DNA of 64,000 bases from contig PXYT01000003.1 in NCBI GenBank assembly GCA_003023725.1, positions 62,001 through 126,000 of the forward strand, in the 5' to 3' direction. The notes under the pieces were generated by a model. It ran no database searches, had not been told where the DNA came from, and saw only the letters and a list, made by a program, of their open reading frames with translations. How positions within the stretch are numbered: position 1 is the first letter of the stretch; each line of letters starts with the position of its first letter. Positions 14,069 to 61,240 of this stretch are shown here, piece by piece. The DNA is from Sulfobacillus benefaciens (lineage in GTDB: Bacteria > Bacillota > Sulfobacillia > Sulfobacillales > Sulfobacillaceae). A program made the position numbers and the translations under genes.

Positions 14069-14137
14069 AGACCTGAGCGCCCTGGGATAAATAAGTCCCT
14101 GGGGGATTATACGGGAAGGGCAGGGGGAGGGGACGAC

Positions 14138-15202: not shown

Positions 15203-15209
15203 TGAAGTG

Positions 15210-16612: not shown

Positions 16613-16699
16613 TTACTGTCTTGTCTGAACGACGTGGCGGATAAAGTGACACTGCCGAGGGATAGGGGAAAGACGGCACAGCGAAGGAGGGCGGTATGT

Positions 16700-33697: not shown

Positions 33698-36600
33698 TTA
33701 GAGAAATGAGTCGCTAAAGGCTGGGGACGAAAAGAACGCAGAGAGAACGGCGGTTTCACTGTTCCTATCAGGCAAGATGACGGCTTGTTCTACGAAAGTA
33801 CAAAGAGCATTAATGAGAGCCAGCTGTTCCGCATCCTTCGGTTTGTGAAACAACAACGAAGGGCTTCCGACCATAATGGCAATCCCTTGGGCCCGGGATA
33901 TGGCCACGTTGAGGCGATTCAGGCTATAAAGGAATTCCAGGCCATGAGGAACCTCTTCGGCACTGGAGGCTGTGGTGTTGTAAATGACAACCGGAGCTTC
34001 CTGTCCTTGAAATTTGTCCACTGTTCCGATGCGCACCGTGGACGGCAATACGGCATGCAGGCGGGTGATTTGGGCATTATACGGGGCTACCACCAGAATG
34101 TCGGAAGCCCCCAACGGGCGGGTTCGGCCTTGCTGGTCCGTCCAAAGCCGGCCGACAAGCTCATCGATAAGCCAGGCGGTGGCGTGAGCTTCTTCGGAGG
34201 AAGCCGTTCGGTTGGCTTGATGCCATAAGGGAAGATAATAGAGCCCTGAGCCGATGACCAAGCCTCTCCCACCCAAACGCTGGCGTGCGCAAGCCTCATG
34301 GGCAACCAGCTTATTGTCATAAGCGATGGCCGATATATACTCAGTGACGCGGGGATGCATCCTGCGAGTTACATTCAGGAAAATGCCAAAGCGTTCATCA
34401 ATGGTTTTGCACCCGTTCAAGAGATATTCCAGCACCGAAACATCGATGCCGGGAGGATGATGACCTTGACTAGGTTGGCGCAATTGTTGCGGATCTCCCA
34501 AGAGGATGACGGAATTGGCGGACTGCCCAGCGGCAAGAGCTTGAGCCAGGGAAATTTGACCGGCTTCGTCGATGACGAGGACATCTAAGGCTTGTTGCCA
34601 TTCTGGGCGTGCGAATAGCCAGGGAGTACCGGCGACGACGGGTATCCCTTGCTGAAACATTTTGGCGACTTGGGCGTTGCTACCCGTGAGCTGCACTTCC
34701 GGTGCGCCGACTCCCTGGTGCTCTTGCGCCTTTTGAACCGCTTTCAGAGGTGAATGGCTCTCCCGTGCCCGGGTTAGCACACTCTCAAGCAGATGACTCA
34801 CCACCTGATGACTGGGGGCGGTTATACCGACGGTCTTTCCCTTGGACACGAGGTCGACAACAATGTGGGAGGCCGTATAGCTTTTGCCGGAACCCGGCGG
34901 GCCCTGAATAGCCAGATATTGATGATCGAGACTCAGAGCCAGACGCCTCGCCGCCTGGACTGCATCCTCATTCTGTCGCCGCAAACTGGTTGGAAGCGGA
35001 TCCGTCGCGAGTCCCGGAGGTTCGCGCCACAACAGGCGCCGAAGGGCCCGAAAAGGGCCCGGGCGAGTATCCGGAAAACGGATAACTTCTTCTGCTATTC
35101 TTTGGAGGGCCAGTTTCAGGACTTGCGTGGGCACGGGCTTGCCGGGAATTAAAGCCTCGGGTCTCGCCTCTTGATTACGGGGAGGCTTGATCACAATTAG
35201 ATTGCGAAGAGGGTCAATGTGAACGACTGTGCCAGCGGATTTGCCGGTAGCCGGATCAAGGGGATTGTCACCCGCTTTGATTTTATGTTCTTGCTCCCGG
35301 TAGCGGTATTGATCAAATCCTTGCGGTGACTTACCCACAAATTCTAGATATCCGAGAGCCTCGGAATCTTCCATCAACTCCTCCGCGGTCATTTCGAGGT
35401 GGGAGAAATGTTTCCACCATTGAGATTTTTCTTCGCGCCGATGCCAGTTCAATAGATGAGCCATAACCCACAGAGGATATCCGGGGTCGGAGGGGTTTGG
35501 TTCCGCGATCAAATTTTGTGTCAATTGTGACGCCAGGGAATAGACGACGTCGGTTTCGGGTTCAATAGTGATATCATCGTCAGCACGGGATTCTTCGGCA
35601 TACGGCTCCCGCAACGGAACGACTTCTCGTTTTCGATCCAAAAGCCACTGGTGGAGGCGCCATGTCGACAGGCAGTCTGCCCGGTTATAGTCTTCGATTT
35701 GGCGAAGAAAATGGGAATCCGGGCGGTGTTTCCACTGGTCGTAGGCGACAACGCTGGCTCCGGCATTGGTAATTTCCTCGTTGCGGGTGGGCATATATAA
35801 TGGTTCAAGGGATTTGATGGAGTAAGATTCTTTGGATATCATCAGACTGTGACGGACGATTTGATAGAGGTCGACGAAAATATGACGGCGAAGCAAGTGA
35901 TCTACTTCCGCTTCCATGATTCCGTGTCGCCCCATTAAACGCTTCAAGGCAGTGGGTTCATAGGGAGCATAATGGTAAATATGCATGTCCGGATAGTCTT
36001 TTAATCGTTCCATCATGCGGGTGATAAAAGCGGAAAAACTGTTCCGCTCCTGAATCCGGTTATGAGCCCAGAGCGCATGAAAAATCGGCTCCTCCCCAAA
36101 CTTGGTTACTTCCGCCCAGCCGAACAAATATTCCAAACTGCCGCCTTCGGCCAGTGGATCCCCTTCGAAATCAAAATAGACATCCCCGGCCGAGGGTTCA
36201 GGCAAAAGATCCAGCCCGTCGCCAAACTTATAAGGCAAGAGTTGGTACGTGATCTCACCGGAGAGGCGCTCCTCAAGCTGCAGCTCGGCCTGTTTTTTCA
36301 GCCGAATCAAGGTGGGCTCGCCGATTCCCGATACCGAGAGGGGAGAAGGGTGACGGGCCAGATCGGTGAGTGTGTGGATTCCGGCGGATTTCAGTTTGTT
36401 GATTTGAGTATGTGTAATGTTGGCAATATAGCCAAGGTGATCATCGTCTCTTCTTCTTTTTTCACAATAAGACAGCCAGGAGCAGGTTGCACAAGCGCTT
36501 TGTAGTTCAGGATAAGTCGGTTCCTGGCTTGGTGCGCGCTCGATCCAATCCTTCAGCCGTTTTCCCGCCAATTGCACGTAGGCGGCAGCGTGGCTTTGTG

Positions 36601-37132
36601 GGTAGAAAAGGGTGCTCGCGTTTCCCAAAACCAATCGAATGGGGGCGGTAACACCCTGAATGTCCTCCAGCAGAAGACTGTAAAAGGTCGCCTGGACCAA
36701 TGCGGACACTCGGGCATGATGGGCTAATTTCACCTCGGTGACCTCATACAGAAAAGAACCTAAGCGTGAGGAGCCAGTCCGCTTTATCAGAAAGTCTGGT
36801 GTTCCCACCCAGTTGTTAATCCATAAGGTTGGTTGGTATAGAACAGGAATTCCTTGCATCAAGGCCTGCCGGCTTGACTCCCAGCGGTCCTTTAGAGATC
36901 CCCAAGGTTGGGCTTGCCAAATAGTGTGGTTTTGAGACTCCAGTTCCGTACGGTAGCTTTGTTCGAACTCGTTTCCTAACCGGGACAGCATGTTGCTTTG
37001 GGCATCGTCCTCCGAAGGAGCAGGGAGGGTTCCATTCAAGACTTGAAGATTGAGCCATGTCCGATACTCACATTCAATGTGATCGACAATATCGGACGGA
37101 GTAAGAATCCATTGATTGTGCACGTGTTGCAT
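33698..37132 (-). CDS. TM0106-type RecB-like nuclease fused to SF1 helicase
   Basis: A 1144-residue multi-domain protein. Residues 1-230 form a RecB-like PD-(D/E)XK nuclease (Asp113 in TPDFLIK; Glu130/Glu133 and Lys135 in YEVTEVK). Its four cysteines are spaced like the FeS-nuclease site of AddB/Dna2 (Cys21, then Cys214-x2-Cys217-x5-Cys223). A helix-hairpin-helix-like segment follows (SVSGIGEPTLIRLKK), then a YprB-type RNase H fold with DxE at 321-323 (YFDFEGDP). The last 400 residues are an SF1B helicase: Walker A GPPGSGKS at 744-751, DEAG at 855-858, GDPQQL, and VDKFQGQEA...NVAISRA near the end. Together they suggest a DNA end-processing or defence enzyme. AGGAGG precedes ATG 37132. It is transcribed alone. 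Confidence 0.9.
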   Translation of the reverse strand: MQHVHNQWILTPSDIVDHIECEYRTWLNLQVLNGTLPAPSEDDAQSNMLSRLGNEFEQSYRTELESQNHTIWQAQPWGSLKDRWESSRQALMQGIPVLYQPTLWINNWVGTPDFLIKRTGSSRLGSFLYEVTEVKLAHHARVSALVQATFYSLLLEDIQGVTAPIRLVLGNASTLFYPQSHAAAYVQLAGKRLKDWIERAPSQEPTYPELQSACATCSWLSYCEKRRRDDDHLGYIANITHTQINKLKSAGIHTLTDLARHPSPLSVSGIGEPTLIRLKKQAELQLEERLSGEITYQLLPYKFGDGLDLLPEPSAGDVYFDFEGDPLAEGGSLEYLFGWAEVTKFGEEPIFHALWAHNRIQERNSFSAFITRMMERLKDYPDMHIYHYAPYEPTALKRLMGRHGIMEAEVDHLLRRHIFVDLYQIVRHSLMISKESYSIKSLEPLYMPTRNEEITNAGASVVAYDQWKHRPDSHFLRQIEDYNRADCLSTWRLHQWLLDRKREVVPLREPYAEESRADDDITIEPETDVVYSLASQLTQNLIAEPNPSDPGYPLWVMAHLLNWHRREEKSQWWKHFSHLEMTAEELMEDSEALGYLEFVGKSPQGFDQYRYREQEHKIKAGDNPLDPATGKSAGTVVHIDPLRNLIVIKPPRNQEARPEALIPGKPVPTQVLKLALQRIAEEVIRFPDTRPGPFRALRRLLWREPPGLATDPLPTSLRRQNEDAVQAARRLALSLDHQYLAIQGPPGSGKSYTASHIVVDLVSKGKTVGITAPSHQVVSHLLESVLTRARESHSPLKAVQKAQEHQGVGAPEVQLTGSNAQVAKMFQQGIPVVAGTPWLFARPEWQQALDVLVIDEAGQISLAQALAAGQSANSVILLGDPQQLRQPSQGHHPPGIDVSVLEYLLNGCKTIDERFGIFLNVTRRMHPRVTEYISAIAYDNKLVAHEACARQRLGGRGLVIGSGLYYLPLWHQANRTASSEEAHATAWLIDELVGRLWTDQQGRTRPLGASDILVVAPYNAQITRLHAVLPSTVRIGTVDKFQGQEAPVVIYNTTASSAEEVPHGLEFLYSLNRLNVAISRAQGIAIMVGSPSLLFHKPKDAEQLALINALCTFVEQAVILPDRNSETAVLSAFFSSPAFSDSFL

Positions 37133-39808: not shown

Positions 39809-40963
39809 CTAGTACAGCTCACGCGATGTCCAGTCATCAAGACAAGCCTTGCGGGGATCCTGGAGTCCCATGTCACGGGCGGCTTCTGCCAAGTAGTCCA
39901 TGACAACGATGCCCTCCATATTCTTCTCGTCGAACATGGAGTGGCCTATCATATTCAAGGTTTGCAAATCCCGGGAGTAAATGCCGGCATCCCACCGAGT
40001 TTTTGTTAAGATCTGATAAATTACTTGCGAGGGAAGGCCGAGGGACTTGGACAGAACCCTGGCCATGCGTTCGGGATTTGTGCGCATGAGATCATGGGCT
40101 CTTAACTGGGCTTTTAGATACGCGTAAATTAGGGACGAATTGTTGGTCATCCATTCGTGAGAAGTGACGAGGCCCGTTAAATAGTCTTGGCCCCGGGATT
40201 CTTCCCAAATTACTTGTCCTGTTCCCAAGTGTTGCATGAGAGTGGGAAAGGGCTCCCACATGCATCCCGCGACGAGAGTTTGCCGAGTTATCAAATGCAT
40301 CCCGTCGGACATGGTGCAGTAATTGACTTGGATATTGGATACACCCATGTCTTTAACGAACCGATTGAGACGATGTTCCGCGCTCGAACGTGGAACGGTG
40401 ACCACCGTAAGATTGCGAGATTCAAAGGGTTTACTATTAGAGCGAGTGAGAACGGCAATACCCCGTCCCCCCTCGGATTTGCCGTCGAAAGCTAATAAGA
40501 CCAAACGAAATCTGTGCAGAAGTGTGCTTAATTTATATCCGACGGCGATAGGGTAATCGCCAAGATAAGCCAGATGGACGCGACCTTGAATCATACCCTC
40601 CAACAAATCCAAACCGCTGTCGGCATTTTCCCAAATGACGGAAACCGAATCCTTGCGGATGGCCGAAAGTTCCGTTTCCAATAGTCTTAATTCTTTAATG
40701 ATCAGCCCTGACCAGGTCTGCGCGGTATGAGTTTGAATGCCGATAACCACAGGAGTCACTTCGTGTTGGCCATGGCGTTGTCGCAAAACCCAGTCGCGCA
40801 GTTCTTCTTGATGGACGAATATGTCCCGACCTATTTTGTAGTAGGGTAATTGGCGATGGTGACGCCATCGGTCAAAAGTTGAACGGCTAATGTGCAAGCG
40901 GCTTAAGACCTCGGGAATTGTCAGGAGTTCCTTTGAGCCTTCTACTGAATTACCACCATCCAT
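39809..40963 (-). CDS. One-component regulator: excisionase-type HTH fused to SsuA/NMT1-like substrate-binding domain
   Basis: A 384-residue protein. Residues 13-62 are a MerR/excisionase-type helix-turn-helix (LLTIPEVLSRLHISRSTFDRWRHHRQLPYYKIGRDIFV, helix_turn_helix_17 pattern). Residues 70-384 resemble an ABC-importer substrate-binding protein of the NMT1/SsuA class: LEGMIQGRVHLAYLGDYPIAVGYK, TVVTVPRSSAEHRLNRFV, VAGCMWEPFPTLMQHLG and YLKAQLRAHDLMRTNPE. There is no signal peptide, so the domain acts in the cytosol as a ligand sensor. ATG 40963 has TAGGAGTGA upstream. The gene lies 171 bases downstream of the MFS gene, as the last gene of the AprA-like operon, and probably controls it. Excisionase-type HTHs fused to a different periplasmic-binding fold (PF12727) are known for molybdate; this NMT1 fusion I do not recall. 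Confidence 0.8.
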   Translation of the reverse strand: MDGGNSVEGSKELLTIPEVLSRLHISRSTFDRWRHHRQLPYYKIGRDIFVHQEELRDWVLRQRHGQHEVTPVVIGIQTHTAQTWSGLIIKELRLLETELSAIRKDSVSVIWENADSGLDLLEGMIQGRVHLAYLGDYPIAVGYKLSTLLHRFRLVLLAFDGKSEGGRGIAVLTRSNSKPFESRNLTVVTVPRSSAEHRLNRFVKDMGVSNIQVNYCTMSDGMHLITRQTLVAGCMWEPFPTLMQHLGTGQVIWEESRGQDYLTGLVTSHEWMTNNSSLIYAYLKAQLRAHDLMRTNPERMARVLSKSLGLPSQVIYQILTKTRWDAGIYSRDLQTLNMIGHSMFDEKNMEGIVVMDYLAEAARDMGLQDPRKACLDDWTSRELY

Positions 40964-41074
40964 CTGCTATCACTCCTAAAGAGTTGATGGTAAGGACCTT
41001 GTGTTTTGACCGACCTTTTCGTAAATATTGACGTTAGTGCGGTTAGACCGTAGATCGGTTACTAGCCAAGATTT

Positions 41075-41115
41075 CCTGTCTTCATGGTTCCACGAAAAGA
41101 CGCCATGAAGACAGG
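41075..41115. repeat. 13-bp perfect inverted repeat between the MFS and regulator genes
   Basis: CCTGTCTTCATGG (41075-41087) and CCATGAAGACAGG (41103-41115), loop 15 bases. It lies 20 bases downstream of the MFS stop. No T-run follows on either strand, so it may act as an attenuator, an mRNA-end stabiliser or an operator for the regulator gene rather than as a standard terminator. Confidence 0.65.
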
Positions 41116-41134
41116 CGCGAGCTGCAGAAAAATT

Positions 41135-42571
41135 TTAAACCTGGCCGTCTGTTACGGGTTCGAGTTCCATTTCCTGACTCTGACACCATTCTTCTTCAAT
41201 GGGTTTGCCAATGGGCTCCCAACGAATAAGAAGCGTGACTAAACCTCCTGCAAGAGGGGCTAACATCAGTAATTGAAATGTCGCGTTGAAACCGACCGCA
41301 CCCAGCAACAAAGGAAACGCAAAGGATCCGACGATACTGCCCACTCGCAGCATGCCTTGAGTCCAGCCGATTGCAGAACCCCGCAGCATGGTGGGAAAAG
41401 AAAGGGCGGCCATGGCCATGCCCTGAGGCCCGGGTCCGAGAGAATGGCCAAGCAAAAAGAGGGAGACAAACACGGCCGCTAGGGGCAACAACCCAAATCC
41501 ATGAGCGAGACCAATGATCGGGAGCGACACTCCGGCGATCGCGTAACCGACCAAAGCAAGTTTTCGGATCCCGGTTCGGTCGCAAATCCAAGCCTGGGAG
41601 ATGGATCCAATGACACCAAAGAAACTAAAGAACATTCCGCCCAATATCGCATACAAAAGACGATGACCAAACAGCATTTGAGCGATAATAGGCAAATAAA
41701 AGATTACTGCAAAGTACTCGATTGACTGGGTGAATGCGATAGAGGACGCCAAAAGTGTGCGCATTGCATAACGAGACGAAAAAATCTGCCTAAAGTTTCT
41801 GGTTGAAGAATGAGGGGTCATAGACAACTCACCGACTGAGAGGTCTTCGACCCTTTCAACGTTGAGGGATTTTTTGAGGATGTTTATGACATCCTGTGAC
41901 TTTCTTCTGTGAGCAGCCCACATGGGGCTTTCCTCCATGTATTTGTAGCGCAGCACCAGAATGATGAGGGCCGGAACGGCCCCGAAACCCACGGCATACC
42001 GCCAGAGATTGTTTCCTGCTCCCAACTCATAAACGATGTACGTGAACAGATAACCGGCGATGGCGGCAATGTACCAGTTTACATAGCTGAGATTTACAAA
42101 ACGGCCCCGGATTTTTGCCGGAGAGAATTCCGCAACAAAGCTTAATGCAACAGGAAAATCCAGTCCTGCACCCAGACCCATCATTAGACGGAAGAAGATG
42201 AGGATTGCCAAATTTGGTGCCAGCGACGCACCGACTGCCGATATCACAAAAAAATAAAGGTCCAGCAGAAACATCTTAAGACGTCCTATTTTATCGACAA
42301 AATGGCCTCCGACTAGAGCTCCGAATACGGCACTGAATGCCATGGCCGAGGAAATCAATCCCAATTCCCAACCGGCAAGATGCATTTCGTGTTGCAACTG
42401 AATAGTGCCGATGCTCAAACTGGAAAAGTCGTAAGCATCCACGAATACGCCGCCCAGGGCAATCAGGGATAGAACCAGACTGTTCTTTCCGTGCGCTTCA
42501 CCGGAATCGATTAAATTGATAACTGACATGGGATTGCGAGTGTCAATTTGATAAGACTGTTTGGAGTTCAT
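41135..42571 (-). CDS. MFS metabolite:H+ symporter
   Basis: A 478-residue, 12-helix transporter. The signature VDAYDFSSLSIGTIQL in helix 1, GGHFVDKIGRLKMFLLDLYFF after helix 2, RLMMGLGAGLDFPVALSFVAEFSPAKIRGRFVN and the loop before helix 7 place it in the sugar-porter/aromatic-acid symporter group, which import organic substrates. AAGGGTGA precedes ATG 42571. It starts 29 bases after the ferredoxin gene in the same operon, so it probably brings in the substrate of the AprA-like enzyme. Confidence 0.85.
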   Translation of the reverse strand: MNSKQSYQIDTRNPMSVINLIDSGEAHGKNSLVLSLIALGGVFVDAYDFSSLSIGTIQLQHEMHLAGWELGLISSAMAFSAVFGALVGGHFVDKIGRLKMFLLDLYFFVISAVGASLAPNLAILIFFRLMMGLGAGLDFPVALSFVAEFSPAKIRGRFVNLSYVNWYIAAIAGYLFTYIVYELGAGNNLWRYAVGFGAVPALIILVLRYKYMEESPMWAAHRRKSQDVINILKKSLNVERVEDLSVGELSMTPHSSTRNFRQIFSSRYAMRTLLASSIAFTQSIEYFAVIFYLPIIAQMLFGHRLLYAILGGMFFSFFGVIGSISQAWICDRTGIRKLALVGYAIAGVSLPIIGLAHGFGLLPLAAVFVSLFLLGHSLGPGPQGMAMAALSFPTMLRGSAIGWTQGMLRVGSIVGSFAFPLLLGAVGFNATFQLLMLAPLAGGLVTLLIRWEPIGKPIEEEWCQSQEMELEPVTDGQV

Positions 42572-42600
42572 CCGCTCATCACCCTTTTTGTGGTTATTTT

Positions 42601-42822
42601 TTATCGCACCAGATATGGGATCTCCACTGTTATGGCGTCAACCGGGCAATCCACTTCGCACGGAAGACAATACCAACATTCGTTGTATTTCATGTACGCC
42701 TTTTTCTCTTTGTCCATCGCTAAAATTCCCATGGGACACACCTGAACGCAAATATCGCAACCGATGCATTTGTCTCGGTCGACAATCACATTGGGCGAGG
42801 TTCTTTTGGTAACGGATGTCAT
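42601..42822 (-). CDS. AprB-like 2[4Fe-4S] ferredoxin
   Basis: A 73-residue ferredoxin with two cluster motifs, CIGCDICVQVCP and CWYCLPCEVDCP, joined by a short loop. CWYCxxCxxxCP is the form found in the AprB subunit of adenylylsulfate reductase and its relatives, but the longer AprB C-terminal tail is absent. GGGAGGATT precedes ATG 42822. It lies 23 bases after the flavoprotein gene and is inferred to be its electron acceptor. Confidence 0.9.
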   Translation of the reverse strand: MTSVTKRTSPNVIVDRDKCIGCDICVQVCPMGILAMDKEKKAYMKYNECWYCLPCEVDCPVDAITVEIPYLVR

Positions 42823-42845
42823 GAGTAATCCTCCCTGTTTGTTAG

Positions 42846-44564
42846 CTATTTGTTAACTGGCTGTGCCGGTGCCGACGATTTGTCCGTAATAATGGGATCG
42901 GGAACGGGAATTTGACCTACCATCATAGTGCCTTCGGGCGTGCGGCCAACAATCGTTCGATACAAGCCGTTTACATCATCGCGGGTGGGATAGTCGAGGC
43001 GATAATGGAGGAATCCCCACCGACTTTCCTTTCGGTAGAGCGAAGACATGGTTGACATCTCGGCACAGTCCAAAATGAAAGGGACTTCCAGAGTTCTGCC
43101 TAATTCATGGGGATCATGGGCTGAAAGCCGGGGAATGTCCTGCATCCGAATGTCGCGGAAACGTTCCATGCCAATGTTCATCATGGTTCCGGACTTGGGG
43201 GGCGTGGAATACTGGCTAAAGGTTCTCCGTATCTTATATTCCACTTCTTCGTGATGGTACCCGTCGGAATTATGCAATGGGCGGTACACCCGTTCATATT
43301 CCTGGTCAATTTGAGCGGGATCAGGTTCGCTGGAAGACGCCCCTTTGGCATACAGCGCGGCGCTTTCGCCAGCCAGTTTGCCAATAACAAAGGCGCCTAA
43401 GAGGTATTGATGCGGTACTGAAGCCACGTCGCCTGCAGCGTACAGACCCTCAAGAGTGGTCCGGGCCTGTTCGTCAACCAAAATACCCGATGCACTATGG
43501 CCGCTGCACAGGCTTGGCTCGCTGAGTGACATTTCCAACATACGATGGCGATAATTTGTGCCGCGGTTAGCGTGAAATCGATCGCGACTGGGGCGTTCGT
43601 TCGAATGGAGCACGTGTTCGATAAACGCAATATCTTTTTCAGGCAAGTGGTCCAGTTTGAGGAATGCCGGCCATTGCCCACGTTGTTTAGCCTGGTACAT
43701 ATGCATAATTAGTTCGCCGCTCCAATAGTCATTGCCGGTTAGGCGTTCGCCGTCGGGATCTGCCGTGTAGCCTCCATAAGGGCCGGCAACATAGGCGCAG
43801 GCCGGACCATTGTAGTCTTTCAGCAAGGGAACAATCATCACCGCTTCCAGACTGGTTAGCTGAGCCCCGGCGCGATACGCCATGGCATAGCCGTCCCCGG
43901 CATTAGTCGGATTTTCGTAAGTGCCGTAGAGATAACCCGTAGCGGGAAGTCCTAGTCTGCCAGCGGCGCCGGTGGTCAAAATCACTGCGCTGGCTTTGAT
44001 TACGACAAATTCACCGGTAAACACATTGAGACCTGTCACGCCAACAACCCGGTTATTACGCGTCAAGATAGAAGTGGCCATGACTCGGTTGATGGTCGTA
44101 ATGTGTCGGGACTTCACCTTCTTATAAAGAATCCGTTTCAAATCGGATCCTTCCGGCATGGGAACCACGTACCGTCCTTCCATATGAACCTTGTGGACGA
44201 TAAAATCGCCTCGATCATCTTTGGAAAACTTCACACCCCAGCTATCCAGTTCCTTGACCATGGAGTACCCTTCCCGGGCGAAGTACAAAACCGTTCGTTG
44301 GTCCAAAATGCCGTCATTGGCCCGCGTAATTTCCCAGACATATTCTTCCGGTGTGGCTTTTCCGGGAATGACGGCATTATTGAGGCCGTCCATTCCCATG
44401 GCTATGGCTCCACTCCTGCGAATGTGTGCCTTTTCCAAGATGGTCACGTTCAAACCGGGAAATCTTTCCTTGGCTTTTATGGCTGCCATGGTTCCGGCGC
44501 TGCCGCCGCCAATTATCAGAACATCGGTTTCGTAGTTCCGTCGTAAACCCATAACATCGGACAT
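42846..44564 (-). CDS. AprA-like FAD-dependent oxidoreductase (fumarate reductase/APS reductase superfamily)
   Basis: A 572-residue flavoprotein. The FAD motif is VLIIGGGSAGTMAAIKAKE, followed by ILEKAHIRRSGAIAMGMDGLNNAV, which is characteristic of AprA-type proteins (EKAxxxRSGAxAMG), and TGAAGRLGLPATGYLYGTYENPTNAGDGYAMAYRAGA. EGLYAAGDVAS closes the FAD site. At about 570 residues it is shorter than dissimilatory AprA (about 620-660), and no sat or qmo genes are near. A role in sulfate reduction or sulfite oxidation is therefore not assured. The enzyme probably oxidises or reduces a small sulfur or carboxylate compound with the ferredoxin as partner. ATG 44564 (or GTG 44567) follows GGGGAGGTC. 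First gene of the four-gene operon. Confidence 0.85.
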   Translation of the reverse strand: MSDVMGLRRNYETDVLIIGGGSAGTMAAIKAKERFPGLNVTILEKAHIRRSGAIAMGMDGLNNAVIPGKATPEEYVWEITRANDGILDQRTVLYFAREGYSMVKELDSWGVKFSKDDRGDFIVHKVHMEGRYVVPMPEGSDLKRILYKKVKSRHITTINRVMATSILTRNNRVVGVTGLNVFTGEFVVIKASAVILTTGAAGRLGLPATGYLYGTYENPTNAGDGYAMAYRAGAQLTSLEAVMIVPLLKDYNGPACAYVAGPYGGYTADPDGERLTGNDYWSGELIMHMYQAKQRGQWPAFLKLDHLPEKDIAFIEHVLHSNERPSRDRFHANRGTNYRHRMLEMSLSEPSLCSGHSASGILVDEQARTTLEGLYAAGDVASVPHQYLLGAFVIGKLAGESAALYAKGASSSEPDPAQIDQEYERVYRPLHNSDGYHHEEVEYKIRRTFSQYSTPPKSGTMMNIGMERFRDIRMQDIPRLSAHDPHELGRTLEVPFILDCAEMSTMSSLYRKESRWGFLHYRLDYPTRDDVNGLYRTIVGRTPEGTMMVGQIPVPDPIITDKSSAPAQPVNK

Positions 44565-44662
44565 CACTGTGACCTCCCCGAATCATGAAATATCCAATCA
44601 TCACCATCAAACATGACATGAAACGATATTAAGTTCCCACAAATCTTACAAATAACAAGTCA

Positions 44663-44691
44663 AATATGTCATGAACATGACGCGTTATCAA
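44663..44691 (-). promoter_or_regulatory. Promoter with palindromic operator in its spacer, upstream of the AprA-like operon
   Basis: On the minus strand TTGATA (-35, 44691-44686) and CATATT (-10, 44668-44663) are exactly 17 bases apart. The spacer contains the palindrome GTCATG-TT-CATGAC (44681-44668). Further CATGAC half-sites lie at 44612-44617 and 44692-44697. The arrangement suggests repression or MerR-like spacer control by the HTH/substrate-binding regulator encoded at the end of this operon. Confidence 0.6.
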
Positions 44692-44697: not shown

Positions 44698-45893
44698 CAA
44701 GAAATAATGATGATAAATGACGATTTGGATGGGAAGGTTTAGGATGTGGACGCTTATGTCAGTCCTTACACATCGATGTGAGACGATGAGCCGCATGGAG
44801 TATCCGTTATAGAAACCTCCGCAATTTCCCAGCTGTCATGAAGTCAGCCGGCATCCCAGAGAATCACAGCATAGTAAAGAATACCGTCGTTGCGGTGCTC
44901 CATTGCGATCGCCGAGTGTGAATTCCGAATGACAAGGCGAGAAGGTATCTTTTCATTCGGAATTCTAGAGGATAAAGTGTGACCGTTCACCGCAACCGCG
45001 GGGTTGTTGGCCAAGGCGGCGGCTGGCATTCTCCCCAGATTTACAGGAATTTGCGTAGCGTGATAGGGAGCGTGCTGGACTTCCACTGCACGTCGCCAGA
45101 GATTGTGCAATGCCCACCATGAGCGCGAACTCGTGGCGATGGAGGAAAAATACCTACCAGACGTGGGTTCGCGCCTTAATAACTCATCTTCAGACGATCA
45201 GGAAACCGGTGGCCACCGCGGTCGCGGCGCGGTCCATGAAGGGCGCGTGAAGAAAAGGAAAACGCGGAACCTATGAGAAAGTCCGGACGTTGATCGCGGC
45301 GGGGTGCTCGGGTTTATGCGGGACTTCCGGGTGGGATAGACGAACAGTCAGGCTGGGAAGGATGGGCGGATGATCAAAATCCACAAAAGATTTCCGGAAT
45401 TTTTCGCAACCTGCCCGTCGCCGAAATCGTTTGCTCTCCGCAATGATATTTCGACCTTCAAGAGGCAAGGATTGCTGGTCTTTGAATTCAAAAGGTCTTG
45501 CAGGACGAACACTTAATGCCAGAGCCTCCAAAATTCCGTCCTGCAATGATTCGTACACCAAATCATCGAAGGTGGGGTATAGTGTATCCCTCCTTGATGA
45601 TCGTGGCCCCCCACTAAATAGTTACTCCTTGGTCAGGACATTGTACGAGGCTAGAATGTTCAAGGGGTGGCTGATGCCGACAGCATGAAGAACCAAGGGA
45701 ACACCGAGATCCTGTAGTTTGATTCTTGCGGCAATTCAAAGGACGCGGATTGGAATTTGTCATTGTGCTGGCAGATTGTTCGCAGCGGCAACCCTTGATG
45801 ATATGTGACAAAGATTAGATTATGCCCAGGACACTTCCTGACCTTTGTCAAATATGGCACTGATATTGTGGGCAGCGATCCCTTTTCCAAAAC
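44698..45893. other. 1.2-kb region without a recognisable gene
   Basis: Several frames of 60-96 codons lack ribosome sites and known domains. The longest (45271-45561, minus strand; FEFKDQQSLPLEGRNIIAESKRFRRR) looks protein-like but is isolated by stops, so a decayed gene is possible. Another GTCATG half-site lies at 44835-44840. No terminator was found. Confidence 0.35.
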
Positions 45894-46982
45894 TTATGAC
45901 AGGGACCCAAGGACCTGTGAGGTTTCCTTGATGAGAACAGCCATTAAGTCACCGGCTCCGTACTCCCGGCTGAGGGGGGAACCTTGTCCGGCCCAAAGCG
46001 ACATGAAATCGGGTCGGGAATTTTTGGCGGCCCAGTTTCGTATCGGTGTGGTAAGAGCGTTTTGAACGGGATAAGGAGGAATCGACCCTTGGTACTGTTT
46101 CATCGAAGTGATGAAGGTGTTTTGAATGATTCGGGCCGGCTTTCCGGAAAATGCTGTTGTCAACACATTTTTTTGCCGGTGACTGGCGAGTACCGCCTCC
46201 TTGTATTGGGAATGAGCTCCACACTCCCTGGCGGGAATAAAGGCGGTCCCCATTTGAACTCCAGCGGCTCCTAGCGCCAAAGCGGCGACAATGCCACGAC
46301 CATCCATGATTCCCCCCGAGGCGATGACTGGCACTTTGATTTCATCGGCAATCTGGGGCACCAGAGCCACAAGTCCTACAAGAGATGAATCGTCAGAATC
46401 GAGAAAGGAACCTCGGTGTCCTCCGGCTTCGGAACCTTGCGCAATGACAGCGTCAACACCTGCCTTTTCCAGTTCAAATGCTTCCGCCACCGTGGTGGCG
46501 GTTCCCATAACGCGGATATTTCGGGCTTTTAGCGTCTCGATATCAGGGGCCGCTGGACAACCGAAGGTAAAGCTAAAGATGGGGACCTGCTCCTCAATAA
46601 TGACCGCCATCTGTTCCGAAAAGTCAAATGGTGTGTGATCTAGAGACAACTGCGAAATCTCCTCGCCGATTTCCGGGGGAATGTCCTTCAGTGATCTCAG
46701 GTACTGCTTCATCGAGGTGATGGCCTCTCTGTTGACATCGTGAAGATCTCTCTGAGGAATAAAGAGATTGATGGCAAAGGGATTTTTCGTGAGTTGGCGA
46801 ATTTTCCGGATGGCCACGCGAATCGATTGTGGAGACATGTATCCGGCCCCAAAAGAACCGAGTCCTCCAGCGTCGGAAACAGCGGCCACCAATTCCGGGG
46901 TGGAAAGCCCGCCTGCCATAGGAGCCTGAATAATGGGGTAACGGATTCCGAGTATACGCGTAATAACGGTATCATTCCACAT
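45894..46982 (-). CDS. Nitronate monooxygenase (2-nitropropane dioxygenase family)
   Basis: A 362-residue FMN enzyme with a TIM-barrel fold. RYPIIQAPMAGGLSTPELVAAVSDAGGLGSFGAG is the N-terminal FMN signature; VDAVIAQGSEAGGHRG carries the catalytic histidine and IASGGIMDGRGIVAALALGAAGVQMGTAF the phosphate-binding region. It oxidises propionate-3-nitronate and other nitroalkane anions. GAGGAGGAAATATT precedes ATG 46982. It is monocistronic. The 14-mer GGGATAAGGGGGTA about 220 bases upstream is shared with the formamidase upstream region, hinting at common control of nitrogen-releasing enzymes. Confidence 0.92.
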   Translation of the reverse strand: MWNDTVITRILGIRYPIIQAPMAGGLSTPELVAAVSDAGGLGSFGAGYMSPQSIRVAIRKIRQLTKNPFAINLFIPQRDLHDVNREAITSMKQYLRSLKDIPPEIGEEISQLSLDHTPFDFSEQMAVIIEEQVPIFSFTFGCPAAPDIETLKARNIRVMGTATTVAEAFELEKAGVDAVIAQGSEAGGHRGSFLDSDDSSLVGLVALVPQIADEIKVPVIASGGIMDGRGIVAALALGAAGVQMGTAFIPARECGAHSQYKEAVLASHRQKNVLTTAFSGKPARIIQNTFITSMKQYQGSIPPYPVQNALTTPIRNWAAKNSRPDFMSLWAGQGSPLSREYGAGDLMAVLIKETSQVLGSLS

Positions 46983-53730: not shown

Positions 53731-54995
53731 AACGCGTCAACCGGTTTGATCCGTACTCATATGTTCCGGTGCCCCGGGAACCAGGTGTAGCAGGAGTCCT
53801 CTTGGTCCAAACTTTTTCAAGGGGATCGCTTATCTCTTCCACCTCCGCCCACATCCACACACTTTACTGTGAACTCCGGTTGAAACCAGTGTAGTGAAGG
53901 AAGATGGGCATCAGAAAAGACCAATACAAGACGTGGTGGCAAAAACACGGGTTCCCCTTCCCCCAGGCAAGCGACAGACGAACTAGGCCTGTCCTACGCT
54001 CGCTTATCCTCGCTCACATAGCGGGTGGTTTGTTCCTTGACTCCAACCACACTGATGCTAATCCCAGGACCGGGAGGTCCTTATTAATGAAAGTATCGGA
54101 ATGCATGCATAATCCTTTTCAACCGCTAGCAACCACAAATTTGGGATCTGTTCAAATCACTCTTGTTCCGGTGTGAAACTTGTTCTGATGCGCTTCTTCT
54201 CACACCACCATCAATTTTTGTGTTTTTATGATTCTGCATCGGAATACCTGCTCTGGCATGGACGTTTTTCACTTCGGACCGGATGTAGAGCCATTGCCCG
54301 GGAACAAGAGGAGATCGGCTAGCCCAATTTTTGATTTGTCTTCGTGATGCTATTCCTCCCCGTAAGATGCCAGAGATTTCAGCCTCGTCCACGACTAAGA
54401 TGTTGTCCTCTACTGGATGCGCTAATTGTGGGCTCGGTTTACCGTTGTGTTTTACCGATATTGGTACCGAGTGGGCGAATTCCTTTCCGAATGATTTGTG
54501 CTGTTATTAAAAGGAAACTTGGATCACAACCGGGTCAGTTGTGCACCAACATGTCTCTGCATATCTTTGGGTCCAATCCTCAGACACATGGCAAACCGCC
54601 AAAAGGAGACGATCCTTTTGAATCACGGCAATACTAGTGTGTGGAGAGGGCGGATGGCGAAAACGCCGGGAAAACGCCGAGCCTCCACAACTTCCGGGGA
54701 TTAACCCTCAAAAAGCGGTAGTTCCGGGGAGGGGCACGAGAAAGGAACCAAGGGCCCACTGCCGGGGGCCGAAATGCTGTCAAAAAACCGGTGCGGTTCT
54801 CTGTTTGGTATCCGTGGGGTGCCGACGCAGGTTCCTTCGAGCCCTTTGAATCGGACTTAAGGGTCCTTATGACCCGACCCGAGGGTTGGTAAGCTGAACC
54901 CAAGGCCGCTGTAACAATGCTGAAGCCCGCCTAACCATGAGAAGTGTACTGGCGGAAGGGGATGAGGCGGCCGTTTGGGACAAGGGGATGAGAGT
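53731..54995. other. 1.25-kb region without a recognisable gene
   Basis: Short frames of 66-97 codons occur on both strands (for example 54126-54392 minus and 53904-54176 plus). None has a ribosome site with a recognisable domain. The promoter of the molybdoenzyme operon should lie here, but I could not place it with confidence. Confidence 0.35.
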
Positions 54996-56069
54996 GTGAA
55001 GCCTGAACAAAAACCCGTGGCGCGGCGTCGCATTTTGCGCCAAATGGCCATCGTGGCCATCAGTGTGTCCGCGGCGGGAACCCTCCTTCGGTCTAAGGCT
55101 CAAGCCAAATCGCTGCAGGCGCTTGCCGCTGCGAGCCGAAAGCAATGGAAGGGGGAAAGCCGCGCACAGGTGCAGTATTACAATACCAAGCCCAGGTGGG
55201 CAAGCTGGACCGTACCTCAGTTAAATGTCTCGGATGGATGGTCCGAACCATCCGGGTGGATGTCTAAAATTGAGAATTCACGAAATCTACCCTATATTCA
55301 CGATAATTTTAATCGGTTGTTGCCAGTGACTAAGTTACCTCATCATTGGGTAATGGTGATTGATCTGCGCCGGTGTATCGGATGCCAGGCGTGTGTTGTC
55401 AGTTGCAAAAGTGAGAACAATGTGCCGGTCGGCGTTTATCGAACTTGGGTGCAAGTAGTGGAGACCGGAACCATGGTCCCCGATTCCCAGGGGTCCGTGG
55501 TGACGGATCAAGGCACATTCGAACCGAATGTCAAGCGTTTTAGTCTCCCCCGCCTGTGCAATCACTGTGATGCCCCGCCGTGTGTGGAAGTCTGCCCCGT
55601 CAAGGCGACTTTTAAGCGGGAAGATGGTCTGGTTTTAATTGATTATCCCAAGTGTCTGGGGTGCGGCTACTGCATCAATGCCTGTCCGTATGACGCCCGA
55701 TTCTTCAACCCGATTCAGCAAACCGCGGACAAATGCACGTTTTGTGTTCAGCGTCTCGACCGGGGGCTCTTGCCGGCTTGTGTGACGTCTTGCGTGGGAA
55801 GGGCTCGGATATTCGGGGATCTTAATGATCCCAACAGCGAAGTGTCCCGGTTGATTGCGTCCTATCCGACGACACATTTGAAGACGACTCTGGGAACAAA
55901 ACCTCAGGTATTCTATATCGATCTCGATGGGGTTCTGGCCGAGGATGGAGCCAATACCTTTAATACCCTCTATCCCTATGCCGTGGGAACAAACACGGAG
56001 GAATACGACGATTTGACGGGCAAGGTACTGCTCCAGACACCGACCGGAGGAGAAAGGGGGACTCCGTAA
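54996..56069 (+). CDS. Tat-exported four-cluster [4Fe-4S] subunit of a molybdoenzyme (TtrB/PsrB-like)
   Basis: The start is taken as GTG 54996 (AAGGGG eight bases ahead); TTG 54975 is a close alternative. The N-terminus has a twin-arginine stretch (ARRRILRQMAIVAISVSAAGTLL), so this subunit appears to be exported with its own Tat signal. Sixteen cysteines form four cluster motifs: CIGCQACVVSCK, CNHCDAPPCVEVCP, CLGCGYCINACP and CTFCVQRLDRGLLPACVTSC. This is the DmsB/TtrB/PsrB layout that passes electrons between the quinone-linked anchor and the catalytic subunit. First gene of a five-gene operon. Confidence 0.92.
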   Translation: MKPEQKPVARRRILRQMAIVAISVSAAGTLLRSKAQAKSLQALAAASRKQWKGESRAQVQYYNTKPRWASWTVPQLNVSDGWSEPSGWMSKIENSRNLPYIHDNFNRLLPVTKLPHHWVMVIDLRRCIGCQACVVSCKSENNVPVGVYRTWVQVVETGTMVPDSQGSVVTDQGTFEPNVKRFSLPRLCNHCDAPPCVEVCPVKATFKREDGLVLIDYPKCLGCGYCINACPYDARFFNPIQQTADKCTFCVQRLDRGLLPACVTSCVGRARIFGDLNDPNSEVSRLIASYPTTHLKTTLGTKPQVFYIDLDGVLAEDGANTFNTLYPYAVGTNTEEYDDLTGKVLLQTPTGGERGTP

Positions 56070-57320
56070 GTGCTGCAAGGATCTTTGGTTCATTCAGGTC
56101 TGGAAAATGTCTATTGGGGCTTAATGATTGTCACGTATCCCTATATTTCGGGACTGGTGGCGGGGTCGTTTGTGGTGTCTTCGCTCAGCCATGTTTTCCA
56201 TCAAAAACTGTTCGACGACCTGGCACCATTGGCGGTATTGGTCAGTTTTGCCCTGCTTTTGGCTGCCCCTTTAACGGTGTTGGGGGACGCGAGGCAACCG
56301 ATGAATTTTTGGGAACTGATGGCACGGGGGCACTGGCCGTATTCCCCTATTGCGTTCTTCATTTTGATTTGGATGTCCTACATCGTGTTGATGCTGTTTG
56401 AATTATACTTTGCGTTTCGCGCACAAAATGTGCGTCGGCTGATTCGCAGCCAAGGACAATCGCGGCTGTACCGATTCCTGACTCTGGGCAGCCGGAACGC
56501 CAGTCTGGCGGGAGAAACGCGCGACAAGCGGGTGTTGATGGTTCTTTCGGCAATAGGTATTTTAATGGCTTTTCTGTTTCACGGATATATCGGATTTATT
56601 TTTGGATCCACCAAGGCGCGGCCCTTGTGGGCGACTCCGTTGATGCCGGTGCTGTTCATTGTGTCGGCTATGGTTTCCGGTATTGCGCTGATGTGGGTGG
56701 TCAACGTCTTGGTTATGCGGTTTTACCACCGTCCGGTCAATCGTGCCCTCGCCAATGGTCTGTTGACTTATCTGGTGTTGTTTGTTCTGCTGGATCTTTA
56801 CATGGATGCCGTAGACTTTCTGACCAGTGCCATTCCGGCTTACACCCAAGGTCCAGTGTCCCAAGGGTTTCAGCGGATATTGATGTATGGACCCAATAGC
56901 TGGGTCTACTTTGGTTTGCAACTCGGGGTGGGACTCGGCATACCGCTGATCGGATGGATCATTCCTCAAGTCCGCCGGTCACTGGCTGGAGGAGCGTTAA
57001 TGAGTCTGGCGGTGTTGGTGGGAGTGTTCGCGATGCGCTGGGATGTTGTAATTGCCGGCCAGGAACAATCGAAAATTTCCAGCAATGTGGTGACGGTCGC
57101 CATACCCTGGACCGGTTTTGATTCGATTCAAACAGTGATCGGAGTCTTCGCGGTGGCATTTGTGGTGTTCATGGGATTGGCATGGGTCTTCCCGTGGCAG
57201 TCGTGGAACCGAATTCCGGCCGCAGAAGACCAGGAGGCACGGGAAACCTCGGCCCGTCAACAAGCGGCCCAGGGCATTCCCGGGACCGCCACAAGCGAAG
57301 GAGGCCATGTGGTGTCATGA
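56070..57320 (+). CDS. NrfD/PsrC-type quinol-binding membrane anchor
   Basis: A 416-residue protein with eight to ten membrane helices, starting at GTG 56070 directly after the FeS subunit's stop codon (AGAAAGGGGG upstream). The first helices (YPYISGLVAGSFVVSSLSHVF, FWELMARGHWPYSPIAFFILIWMSYIVLML) fit the NrfD/PsrC family, which exchanges electrons with the quinone pool. No heme histidine pattern is evident, as expected for the family. Its stop overlaps the ATG of the catalytic subunit gene. Confidence 0.9.
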   Translation: MLQGSLVHSGLENVYWGLMIVTYPYISGLVAGSFVVSSLSHVFHQKLFDDLAPLAVLVSFALLLAAPLTVLGDARQPMNFWELMARGHWPYSPIAFFILIWMSYIVLMLFELYFAFRAQNVRRLIRSQGQSRLYRFLTLGSRNASLAGETRDKRVLMVLSAIGILMAFLFHGYIGFIFGSTKARPLWATPLMPVLFIVSAMVSGIALMWVVNVLVMRFYHRPVNRALANGLLTYLVLFVLLDLYMDAVDFLTSAIPAYTQGPVSQGFQRILMYGPNSWVYFGLQLGVGLGIPLIGWIIPQVRRSLAGGALMSLAVLVGVFAMRWDVVIAGQEQSKISSNVVTVAIPWTGFDSIQTVIGVFAVAFVVFMGLAWVFPWQSWNRIPAAEDQEARETSARQQAAQGIPGTATSEGGHVVS

Positions 57321-60300
57321 GTGATGACGAAGAGAGTCGCAAAAATGGGGTTAGCCGGCGCCGGTTCTTGCAGGGCAGCGTCATGGGCGGTGCCGGAATT
57401 CTTGTAAGCGGATGGGGTTTGTCACCGTGGATCGGGAATGTGTTTCACCGTCGGGGCACATTTGTCTACCCCGACCGTCCGCCGACCTGGGCCGGCGTGG
57501 AAACAAAATACAGCGTGTGCAAACAGTGTGGCAGCGATTGCGGCATTGAGGCACATATCTTCAACGGTATCTTACAAAAGCTGGACGGGAATCCCTATCA
57601 TCCGGCGTCCACGGAGCCCCATGCGCCGTACGCCACGGCAGTCGCGACGGCTAATGTCTGGCCAGCCCCGCATTCGCTCTGCCCAAGAGGTCAGGCCGGA
57701 CGGCAAACAGTGTATGACCCTTACCGTATCACCGTACCCTTAAAACGCACGGGGCCCCGGGGATCCGGTCAGTGGGAGGCAATTTCTTGGAATCGCTTGA
57801 TTTCTGAAGTCGTATCAGGGGGCGTATTGTTCCACGGTGTCCCGGGAGAAAGTACTCGCGTCGTGACAGGATTCGGCGGATTGTACAACAACGGCAAAAA
57901 TCAGAGCGTGCCGATTGATCCCGCTCACCCGGACATGGGTCCCAAGACCAATGGTCTCATGATCTATATCGGGGAAGCCGAAGCGGGACAAAGCCAGTTT
58001 ATCGCACGGTTTGCGAATGCTTTTGGCACGGTCAACGTTCAGGGTAACGGGCAAATTTGCAACAATAACGTGGGGATATCCTACAATTTGTCGACGGCCG
58101 GTCAGGCCGGGGAATTCCGTCCGGATATTTTGAATGCGGAATATGTGCTGTGGTTTGGGCTCAATGCCCTGGAAGCCAATTTTCCCATGCAGGCGATTGG
58201 TCGTAAAGTCGTTGAAGCGGTGAGTTCCGGATCACTCAGTTATCATATGGTGGATGTCCGTTCCGGCAATGCCTTCATTCATGCTAGCAATCAAACCTGG
58301 GTGCGCCCTGGCGGAGACGGCGCCCTGGCGATGGGGATGATTCGGTGGATATTGGAGAATCAGCGCTATAACGCACCGTATCTGGGTATTCCGCACGCCA
58401 AGGCGGCGTCGGCCCAGGGAGAACCTAATTTTACCAATGCCAGTTGGCTGGTGGTGAGCGATCCCACCAATCCCAATAACCGGGCGTTTCTCACCGCGGC
58501 TCAAGCGGGTCTGGTTTCCGCATCCGATGCCCAGGCGTCCGATGCGGTGGTTCTGGACGCGGCCACGGGGAAGCCGGCTGTGGCCAACCGTGTGTCTCAA
58601 GGGAGACTGTGGCCGAAGGCTGCCATGGACCTCAGCGAGGTAAAGGTGGCGGGCATTTCCTGCCGGACCGCGTTGCAAATGTTGGCAGAGGAGGCCATGC
58701 GATTTGATCTGTCGCAGTATGCCGTCATGGCCGGCACCGATCAACGGGAGATTGTGCATTTGGCCGAGGAGTTCACCAGTCATGGTCGCAAGGCCGTTGT
58801 GGACTTTTTCCGGGGTGCGGTGATGCATACCAACGGCGTGTATACGGGAAGGGCTCTCATGACACTGAATATGTTAATTGGCAATATTGACTGGATGGGA
58901 GGTTATATGGTGGGCGGGGGCGGAGCCGATATTCTGGGCACGAACCCGGGGCAACCCTATAATTTGAAGAAGTGGCCGAATATGAATACCCAAGTACCGG
59001 CCGGTGTTACGGTTTCCCGCAACGGCACCGCCTACGAGACGACGTCTTACTATCAGCATAAAGTGGCGCAAAAGCAGTCCCCCTATCCGGCGGAAAGACC
59101 GTGGTTTCCGTTCAGTGGCGGTTTGTGGGAGGAAATGTTTGCCGGTATTTATGAAGGCTATCCCTACGCCTGTTCTATTTTGGTTCAGCACATCGCCAAT
59201 CCCGCATGGAGCGCACCGGGAATAGGAGGAGCGGACGACGACAACTTGCCGTGGGTGAAGTTGATTAAAGACACTGCCAAGATTCCCTTGTTTATCGCCA
59301 TCGACACGCAGATCGCAGAAAGCTCCCGCTATGCCGATTACATCATTCCGGACACGACCTATTTGGAAGGCTGGGGATTTCCTTCTGTCCGTCCGGTTAT
59401 CCCTACCAAGGTAACCGGAATTCGTCATCCCGTAATCGAGCCGTTGACTCAGAAGACCCCGGCAGGAGACCCGATAAGTATGGAACAGTTTTTCATTGAT
59501 GTCGCCCGGACGATTAAATTGCCGGGATTTGGTTCCAATGCCTATGTCGAAGGAGGCTCACTGAATTCCCGCGAGGATTATTACCTGAAGATGGCAGCCA
59601 ACGTGGCGTGGGACAGCTCGTTTCTTTCCCGCTCGGGTAATCAGTTTGTGTCTGGGGGGCCGGTTCCGAATGCCCAAAGTGCCCAGGAGTTGGCCAGTAT
59701 TCAGACCTTGAGGGCAGATCATTCCAACGCTCTCACCACGGCTCAGTGGGCGAAAGTGGCCTATGTTGTGGCACGGGGGGGCCGTTTCGAAGATTATAAC
59801 GTGGCCTATTTGCCGAACGCCGAAACCAATAGCCGGCTCAAGAATTTGATGACGGGGCAGGTGGTGCGCACGGGGGTTGAAGGTTGGGCCAAAGCGCCGA
59901 ACCAACTCAGTCCCCAGGATTTGCTGGCGACTTATCAAAATATGGTTCCGGCCGGAAGTGGCTTGTCCCCGTCTAATCCATCCTGGGTGACGCATCAACT
60001 CGGGACTTCCGATGCTCTGCAGATCTACAATCCCGATCAGGCTTTAGCTGTGAATGCTCTGACTGGTGCCCATTTTGTGGGAACCGGAACGTATCAGCCT
60101 CCTCAGAACATGTTGGGACAGCCGCTGAGGGATCTGGACCCGTCTTCGGAATTTCCGTTTATCCTCAGTACGCGGAAAGAGACCGTCCAAAGCAAGGCCT
60201 GGACGATTGCCGATCCCTGGCTTTTGGAGATGTTGCCAGAATCCTTTATCGACATGAATCCGGTTGATGCCAGCCGCTTGGGGCTTCATGCCGGGGATGA

Positions 60301-60610: not shown

Positions 60611-60643
60611 GTTGTGGAGTTTGAACCGGGGAGGAGATATATC

Positions 60644-61240
60644 ATGAGCGAATCAATACGCATAGTCTCGGAGGACGCGGCTTTAGTGTGTGATCTACTG
60701 GCCTCGGCCTTTCTGTACGGGCCTTCCCAGTTAGATAAACACGCACAGGATCTGTGGTATCGGCACTTAAGCCGGCAAACTCCTGCCGTGCGCTACGCTT
60801 GGGGGGCTGTGGCCGACATTTTGGATGGGAAGGAGAAACTGCAACAAGCGATCCAAGACTTCCAGCAATGCGTGGAAGTACCGGTTCCGGGCCGGTACGT
60901 TCCTCCGTACGCTTCGTGTTATCTGAACAAGCCGGCAACATTGTGGGGGCCCAGCACTTTTAACGTATTGGAGTGGTATGAACAAGGGGGATTGGAGTGG
61001 CAACGATCTCCTAACGTGGTAGCCCCGGATCATGTCGGTGTGGAGTGGGCCTTCTTGGCGGAATTGAGCGAACTTTCCTCACGTGAGGCACTGGAACTGA
61101 GACGCGTGTTTATTATGGATCACGTTCGGAAATGGTTTCCGGCTTTTATGGATCGGCTCAAAACAACGGTCCAGGGTTCTTACTATCCGGCACTTGGGGA
61201 TTTCGGCATGGTCTGGATTGAATCCGAGGTTTGGCGTTAG
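60644..61240 (+). CDS. TorD/DmsD-type molybdoenzyme maturation chaperone
   Basis: A 198-residue all-helical protein from ATG 60644 (GGGGAGGAGATATATC ahead). The motif YVPPYASCYLNKPATLWGPSTFNVLEWYEQGG and the downstream PDHVGVEWAFLAELSEL are those of the TorD family (E-x-x-PPY, then DH-x-G-x-E). Such chaperones bind the Tat signal of the catalytic subunit until the cofactor is in place. It lies 33 bases after the catalytic subunit gene. Confidence 0.9.
   Translation: MSESIRIVSEDAALVCDLLASAFLYGPSQLDKHAQDLWYRHLSRQTPAVRYAWGAVADILDGKEKLQQAIQDFQQCVEVPVPGRYVPPYASCYLNKPATLWGPSTFNVLEWYEQGGLEWQRSPNVVAPDHVGVEWAFLAELSELSSREALELRRVFIMDHVRKWFPAFMDRLKTTVQGSYYPALGDFGMVWIESEVWR

Follow-up and report, generated by a model that had tools for sequence, protein, structure and literature searches.

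What compound does Sulfobacillus benefaciens sense, import and convert with a four-gene set that couples a flavoprotein and a ferredoxin to a transporter and to a regulator that resembles a transport protein? The set lies in a 64,000-nucleotide stretch of contig PXYT01000003.1 (assembly GCA_003023725.1, positions 62,001 to 126,000), hereafter the window, and comprises genes for a flavoprotein of the NF006131/PRK08275 family, a small ferredoxin, a major facilitator superfamily (MFS) transporter and a regulator in which a helix-turn-helix (HTH) domain is joined to a domain of substrate-binding protein (SBP) type. We consider it probable, if not strongly so, that these genes form an inducible operon for the use of organosulfonates, a variant of a widespread PRK08275 flavoprotein/ferredoxin module. 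The genes are as follows.

42846..44567, minus strand: flavoprotein, 573 amino acids, GTG start at 44567 or ATG start at 44564; NF006131/PRK08275
42601..42822, minus strand: ferredoxin, 73 amino acids, Pfam Fer4 dicluster, eight cysteines for two [4Fe-4S] clusters
41135..42571, minus strand: MFS transporter, 478 amino acids, Pfam Sugar_tr/MFS_1, in the place of an ATP-binding cassette (ABC) importer
39809..40963, minus strand: regulator, HTH_17 at residues 13-63 and SsuA-like ligand domain at about 67-378, no signal peptide

A conserved operon

An earlier, sequence-only reading of this DNA had described four co-directional genes with gaps of 23, 29 and 171 bases, and this layout was borne out: all four lie on the minus strand in the order flavoprotein, ferredoxin, MFS transporter, regulator, and the ATG start at 44564 is the end given in that reading. 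The genes and their order are kept in a congeneric metagenome-assembled genome (G002, WH4.bin11, labeled 'Bacillota bacterium'), with protein identities of about 85, 90, 84 and 75%, respectively. The ratio of nonsynonymous to synonymous substitution rates (dN/dS) against the congener is about 0.05-0.08, with dS near saturation, for the flavoprotein, the transporter and the regulator, which are thus under purifying selection; for the ferredoxin dS is saturated. The kept order and the low ratios indicate that the operon is more than a chance arrangement. That the four are neighbors without a joint function is barely credible: the 171-base gap ahead of the regulator gene and the occurrence of the flavoprotein in only 2 of 61 related genomes, sporadic within the group, would fit this notion, but it is countered by the same order in the congener at 75-90% identity, by a regulator homologue that adjoins the flavoprotein in every Paenibacillus locus seen (one with a fragment only) and by a predicted operator upstream of the operon.

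The congener carries a frameshift in its MFS gene, and its regulator gene is divided over two contigs (L022:1-2720, L023:11936-12829), where a transposase-like frame, interpreted as IS200/IS605-like, marks the break; this is either decay or an assembly error.

The flavoprotein family

The flavoprotein scores 797.7 bits against the NF006131/PRK08275 profile (curated cut-off 587) and therefore belongs to this family, which is very conserved (mean column identity of 73% in an alignment of 40 members from several phyla) and uncharacterised; a scan of 84,980 genomes yielded at least 591 confirmed relatives. Its Pfam domains, FAD_binding_2 and Succ_DH_flav_C, are those of the succinate dehydrogenase superfamily, and it stays far under the cut-offs of the AprA, fumarate reductase and succinate dehydrogenase families.

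The solved structure closest to the predicted model, which has predicted local distance difference test (pLDDT) values below 60 in parts of the active-site region, is the alpha subunit of the Methanothermococcus 3'-phosphoadenosine 5'-phosphosulfate (PAPS) reductase (8a8o, Z 49.4), and AprA of adenosine 5'-phosphosulfate (APS) reductase is also among the nearest. The Methanothermococcus enzyme resembles APS reductase and has a ferredoxin subunit with two clusters (PMC10322725). The window pair shares with it and with AprBA the fold and the plan of a flavin adenine dinucleotide protein accompanied by a two-cluster ferredoxin, but lies below the family cut-offs (149 of 641.75 bits for AprA, TIGR02061; 31 of 135.65 for AprB, TIGR02060). 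The labels 'AprA-like' and 'AprB-like' given in the sequence-only reading hold for the fold alone; the flavoprotein belongs to NF006131 and the 73-residue ferredoxin is not AprB. Arg265 of AprA, a substrate contact, is replaced by Leu or Thr in every one of the 40 NF006131 members aligned, although the invariant Asn62 of the flavoprotein does match Asn74 of AprA, and sulfate-activation genes do not recur in the module. An enzyme of the APS- or PAPS-reductase type, acting on activated sulfate or on sulfite and a nucleotide, is thus very improbable despite the structural proximity and the shared asparagine, given the profile scores, the unconserved arginine and the module's gene content. That the locus does not serve dissimilatory sulfate metabolism, as had been argued from missing sat, qmo and dsr genes, is supported, the premise itself less fully: the window has no ATP sulfurylase gene (sat) and the genome no DsrA over the cut-off, but a sat gene lies about 5.7 kb past the window's right end on the same contig, with a second copy elsewhere in the genome, and qmo was not searched for.

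The superfamily also brings to mind a carboxylate operon, in which a fumarate-reductase-like enzyme would act on an unsaturated organic acid that enters through the MFS protein, comparable to tricarballylate use by TcuABC, and the regulator's link to sulfur would be irrelevant here. However, residues H242, R286, H354 and R399 of SdhA, which we take to be catalytic, are unmatched in the flavoprotein (V or N, gap, S and gap, in one profile alignment on which this result depends). With these positions unmatched and Arg265 replaced, neither known reaction can be assumed. R274 of the flavoprotein was considered as the catalytic arginine of SdhA and rejected, as it aligns with SdhA R271 and not with R286.

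A widespread module and its variant in the window

In a survey of 80 flavoprotein loci, the ferredoxin gene adjoins that of the flavoprotein in 79, and most loci also contain a HEAT-repeat protein (72), NitT/TauT-type ABC transporter genes (64-66) and a GntR/UTRA regulator (62). The core module is widespread and not new, so that the pair could not be upheld as the 'new system' proposed from the sequence; it normally has its own ABC importer and, outside Firmicutes, the HEAT protein. The window operon has the same flavoprotein and ferredoxin families in the same order, whereas the HEAT protein and the ABC importer are absent beside it, and an MFS transporter takes the importer's place and an HTH-SBP regulator that of the GntR/UTRA protein. 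The HEAT protein as a required part was rejected for Firmicutes, Paenibacillus included, where it is absent.

HTH-SBP proteins occur in six Paenibacillus loci and SsuD in five other loci. In the latter, an SsuD gene (over the cut-off) lies ahead of the flavoprotein gene on the same strand, separated from it by permease and ATPase genes, and the Methylococcales loci among them also carry an SfnB/DszC-like gene. Further neighbors are FdxA (20 of 80 loci), a GltD-like NAD(P)H oxidoreductase (11 of 80), a ferredoxin-NADP reductase gene beside a module and Rnf genes in three loci (RnfA, B, C, D and E over cut-offs in L082, RnfC in L035, RnfA in L051). As such partners would deliver electrons into ferredoxin, they suggest a ferredoxin-driven reduction by the pair. 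TauE-like or sulfate-exporter-like genes, present in a few module loci, fit a release of sulfite.

Proteobacterial module SBPs (L010:11005-12432 and others) are about 470 amino acids long, with a NosL-like C-terminal domain (PF05573, E 0.0012, under the cut-off). A second, distant flavoprotein-ferredoxin pair (22-24% identity) occurs in Paenibacillaceae at L165:9240-14028, L171:9105-13773 and L179:2084-6892, with a TauA/SsuA-like ABC transporter and divergent from a regulator of the same family as that of the window.

Among the loci seen, an MFS protein is part of the module only in the genus of the window. Relatives of the transporter (46% identical in the same bacterial family, 40% in Rhodococcus) reside in operons for hydroxy or sugar acids, next to aldehyde dehydrogenase, UxaA-type and hydroxyacid dehydrogenase genes, and by this association the protein is probably an organic-anion transporter. 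Import by it and redox conversion by the pair make a plausible sequence of events. The UxaA and Ldh neighbors of the Rhodococcus relative were considered as sulfolactate genes and dropped, since no family passed its cut-off. These neighbors and the flavoprotein's superfamily would suit a carboxylate operon, which we nevertheless judge improbable in view of the unmatched SdhA residues, the PAPS reductase as closest structure and the ties of the regulator to organosulfur operons that are described below.

A regulator derived from a binding protein

The claim that the regulator is built from a substrate-binding protein is supported. Pfam HTH_17 matches its N-terminal part (1.3e-9) and the NCBIfam SsuA_fam its C-terminal part (1.7e-10), the latter at 40.6 of 163.5 bits and hence below the cut-off. 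In the six Paenibacillus loci, a 39-41% identical HTH-SBP protein is divergent from a flavoprotein-ferredoxin-SBP-permease-ATPase array, the SBP of which is itself 30-35% identical to the regulator's ligand domain. Phylogenetic analysis places the seven regulators as sister to the six Paenibacillus module SBPs (support 99/96), with Ssu-type SBPs outside, and the window regulator in one clade with the Paenibacillus ones (100/100 in this tree, 96/98 in a tree of 41 regulators). By this placement, the regulator is a predicted cytosolic relative of the module's own binding protein.

Across 297 Paenibacillaceae genomes the flavoprotein is present in 6 and a match to the regulator in 36. The 40 full-length relatives that were placed by context are distributed as follows: 19 at ssuADCB operons (SsuD and SsuA over NCBIfam cut-offs, checked in one locus), 9 at DmoA/NtaA monooxygenase-ABC clusters, some of which include a TauD-like gene, 9 at the flavoprotein module and 3 at the second flavoprotein-ferredoxin pair; the Paenibacillaceae neighborhoods read show none in any other context. 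The 41-regulator tree (18 ssu, 1 ssu plus second flavoprotein, 9 dmo, 3 second flavoprotein and 10 flavoprotein module, including the window) recovers the ssu, dmo and second-flavoprotein groups as clades (100/99, 100/100 and 99/96), with the flavoprotein-module regulators basal and all 41 jointly sister to the flavoprotein-module SBPs rather than to SsuA (90/95, on long branches). The ssuADCB operons of Paenibacillaceae thus share with the window the regulator family and, as shown below, the operator, but employ the SsuD monooxygenase as enzyme and a divergently transcribed regulator, whereas that of the window is the last gene of the operon.

A LysR regulator near the module in cyanobacteria (Leptolyngbya, also Pseudanabaena) has an SBP domain at its C-terminal end, which falls within the other module SBPs (90/81, on a long branch). 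The placements of the HTH_17 and LysR fusions suggest that the module SBP was built into a transcription factor twice, and the two recruitments seem independent. The LysR-SBP fusions are located at L007:6388-8421 and on Pseudanabaena plasmids (hits H54 and H55), beside or near the flavoprotein module.

The likely ligand

The predicted structure of the regulator (pLDDT 89.4) matches best SsuA in complex with 3-(N-morpholino)propanesulfonic acid (3ksx, Z 29.1, 2.9 A over 275 residues), with bicarbonate-, nitrate- and taurine-binding proteins close behind, and sequence profiles rank SsuA (1e-52) far ahead of nitrate and bicarbonate proteins (about 1e-6). An intracellular NitT/TauT-type binding protein is also used as a sensor in CmpC and NrtC of cyanobacterial bicarbonate and nitrate transporters (fold Z 26-28); there, however, the regulatory domain is fused to the transporter ATPase and acts on transport, not on transcription, whereas that of the window regulator is fused to HTH_17. 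LysR-type Cbl and CysB, which have a periplasmic-binding-protein-like ligand domain and act at sulfonate genes, are work-alikes with another DNA-binding domain and operator, the window's ligand domain coming from an ABC binding protein.

SsuA contacts its sulfonate through Q36, G68, G86 and S141 (PMC3839906). These positions correspond to Q77, G117, G135 and S194 of the window regulator and are kept in 41 of 41 regulators, so that fold and contacts are shared with SsuA, from which the regulator differs in being cytosolic, fused to HTH_17 and below the SsuA_fam cut-off. A sulfonate or a sulfur oxyanion is the best guess for the ligand. The earlier proposal of a small sulfur or sulfonate compound is well supported by these contacts, by the regulator's relatives at ssuADCB and by the shared operator.

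The same operon and operator could instead belong to a general response to sulfur limitation, in which the regulator would, like Cbl and CysB, respond to the cell's sulfur status through sulfate, sulfite or an intermediate of assimilation rather than to the substrate. In favor of this are the use of a single regulator family at operons for different substrates, the descent of its ligand domain from the flavoprotein-module SBP even at ssu and dmo loci, and a pocket that could accommodate a small sulfur oxyanion; yet the regulators group into separate clades by context, with differences at pocket positions 80, 118 and 236, as expected if each senses its own substrate, and some genomes (for example G155, G320 and G339) have one regulator per operon. 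We regard this alternative as unlikely.

A predicted shared operator

A motif search in the upstream regions linked to these regulators revealed a 20-bp pattern, TTCCTCATTCCTCCTCATTG, made of two 10-bp units and often continued by more copies. The direct-repeat model scores 850.5, versus 406-420 in shuffled sequences; palindromic models (427.8 and 492.9) were weaker against shuffles and were rejected. Upstream of the window operon lie:

44705..44724, minus strand: predicted operator, 10-bp direct repeats ATCGTCATTT ATCATCATTA, with the flavoprotein gene starting about 140 bases further downstream
44663..44691, minus strand: promoter-like TTGATA-N17-CATATT, its second hexamer preceded by TG, close downstream of the repeats

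With a matrix built from Paenibacillaceae sites only, 44705-44724 ranks first among 127,962 window positions (18.5 bits; next 14.1), and it is again first with a matrix from ssu and dmo sites only, while the congener's site ranks first among 24,872 positions. The regulator is thus linked to its operon and to the operator across contexts. In 27 of 34 Paenibacillaceae sites, TTGA[CT] begins at a distance of exactly 22, 32, 42 or 52 bases from the first copy; the distance is 33 bases in the window and in the congener (L024), which has the same promoter hexamers and spacing as the window. In the overall scan, promoter-like sites were no commoner than in shuffles. Judged by these sequences, the repeats are common to all contexts and in phase with the putative -35 box, a location that suggests an activator rather than a repressor.

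The recognition helix SRAT goes with CCTCAT repeats and SRST with other letters (44/2 versus 2/20 half-sites, uncorrected for phylogeny); within the flavoprotein-module group the association is 8/2 versus 2/6 (p = 0.054). The window regulator has SRSTF like the dmo group, and the first window repeat is identical to a dmo-group one. Of the other operator-like sites in the genome (C2, C83, C122 and C145), two are inside genes and the rest near genes without an evident role in sulfur metabolism, and therefore we claim no wider regulon.

A probable inducible route to sulfonate sulfur

On the organosulfonate reading, the cytosolic activator, with its excisionase-type HTH and SsuA-like domain, would bind an intracellular sulfonate, or a closely related sulfur oxyanion, and occupy the direct repeats by the -35 box of the operon that ends in its own gene. 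The MFS protein would bring in an organic anion, the two-cluster ferredoxin would feed electrons to the flavoprotein, which would reduce the substrate, and the sulfur would probably be freed as sulfite.

Several facts weigh against this proposal. The relatives of the MFS protein are found in carboxylate operons; the backbone contacts of SsuA are similar to those in other proteins that bind oxyanions (PMC3839906), so that other oxyanions would fit too; and the host genome (assembly 98% complete) has no SsuD, as judged by NF001939. The operators may be shared by descent, every ssu operon in the comparison having an adjacent regulator. The module is also present in the sulfur oxidisers Acidithiobacillus, Thiobacillus and Halothiobacillus, which should rarely lack sulfur, so that scavenging may not be its sole role. 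The sequence-only reading was confirmed in its observation and partly supported in its interpretation.

A broader proposal, which we put forward as doubtful, makes the PRK08275 flavoprotein and its ferredoxin a new class of desulfonating enzyme that works reductively, depends on ferredoxin and needs no oxygen. It would release sulfite, as a counterpart of APS/PAPS reductase for sulfonates, would occur across Pseudomonadota, Cyanobacteriota, Actinomycetota and Bacillota, and would have been wired to transcription twice independently through fusion of its own SBP to a DNA-binding protein (HTH_17 in Firmicutes, LysR in cyanobacteria). If sulfite is indeed released reductively from sulfonates, annotation would have overlooked an oxygen-independent route in the sulfur cycle. 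In any case, an enzyme that is very common, yet bears no annotation beyond 'fumarate reductase/succinate dehydrogenase flavoprotein', obtains a testable organosulfur role.

The regulator family and its operator appear to be the new part: a family of transcription factors linked to sulfonates, for which an operator is defined, apparently undescribed in the literature searched, the members of which could also act as sulfonate biosensors. Searches of the openly licensed literature, where absence proves little, gave no description of the module, PRK08275 or the HTH-SBP regulator, and the module is unmentioned in the papers checked on dimethyl sulfide assimilation, Rhodococcus biodesulfurisation and Gordonia.

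Other features of the window

A 13-bp inverted repeat, CCTGTCTTCATGG...CCATGAAGACAGG (41075..41115, no strand assigned), was read between the MFS and regulator genes. Upstream of the operon on the same strand, a nitronate-monooxygenase family gene (45894-46982) is kept beside the congener operon (74% identity). The region 33698-37132 encodes a TM0106-family RecB-like nuclease joined to a superfamily 1 helicase (TIGR03491, 269 bits, over the cut-off). By reading only, 5129-18037 is likely a cluster for a soluble di-iron monooxygenase of the propane type, with a reductase, an alcohol dehydrogenase, an amidohydrolase, a chaperonin, a sigma-54-type activator and a sigma-54 factor. Identified in the same manner, 54975-61240 encodes a Tat-type iron-sulfur protein, an NrfD-like membrane protein, a large molybdopterin oxidoreductase and a chaperone-like protein, which together probably form a respiratory complex.

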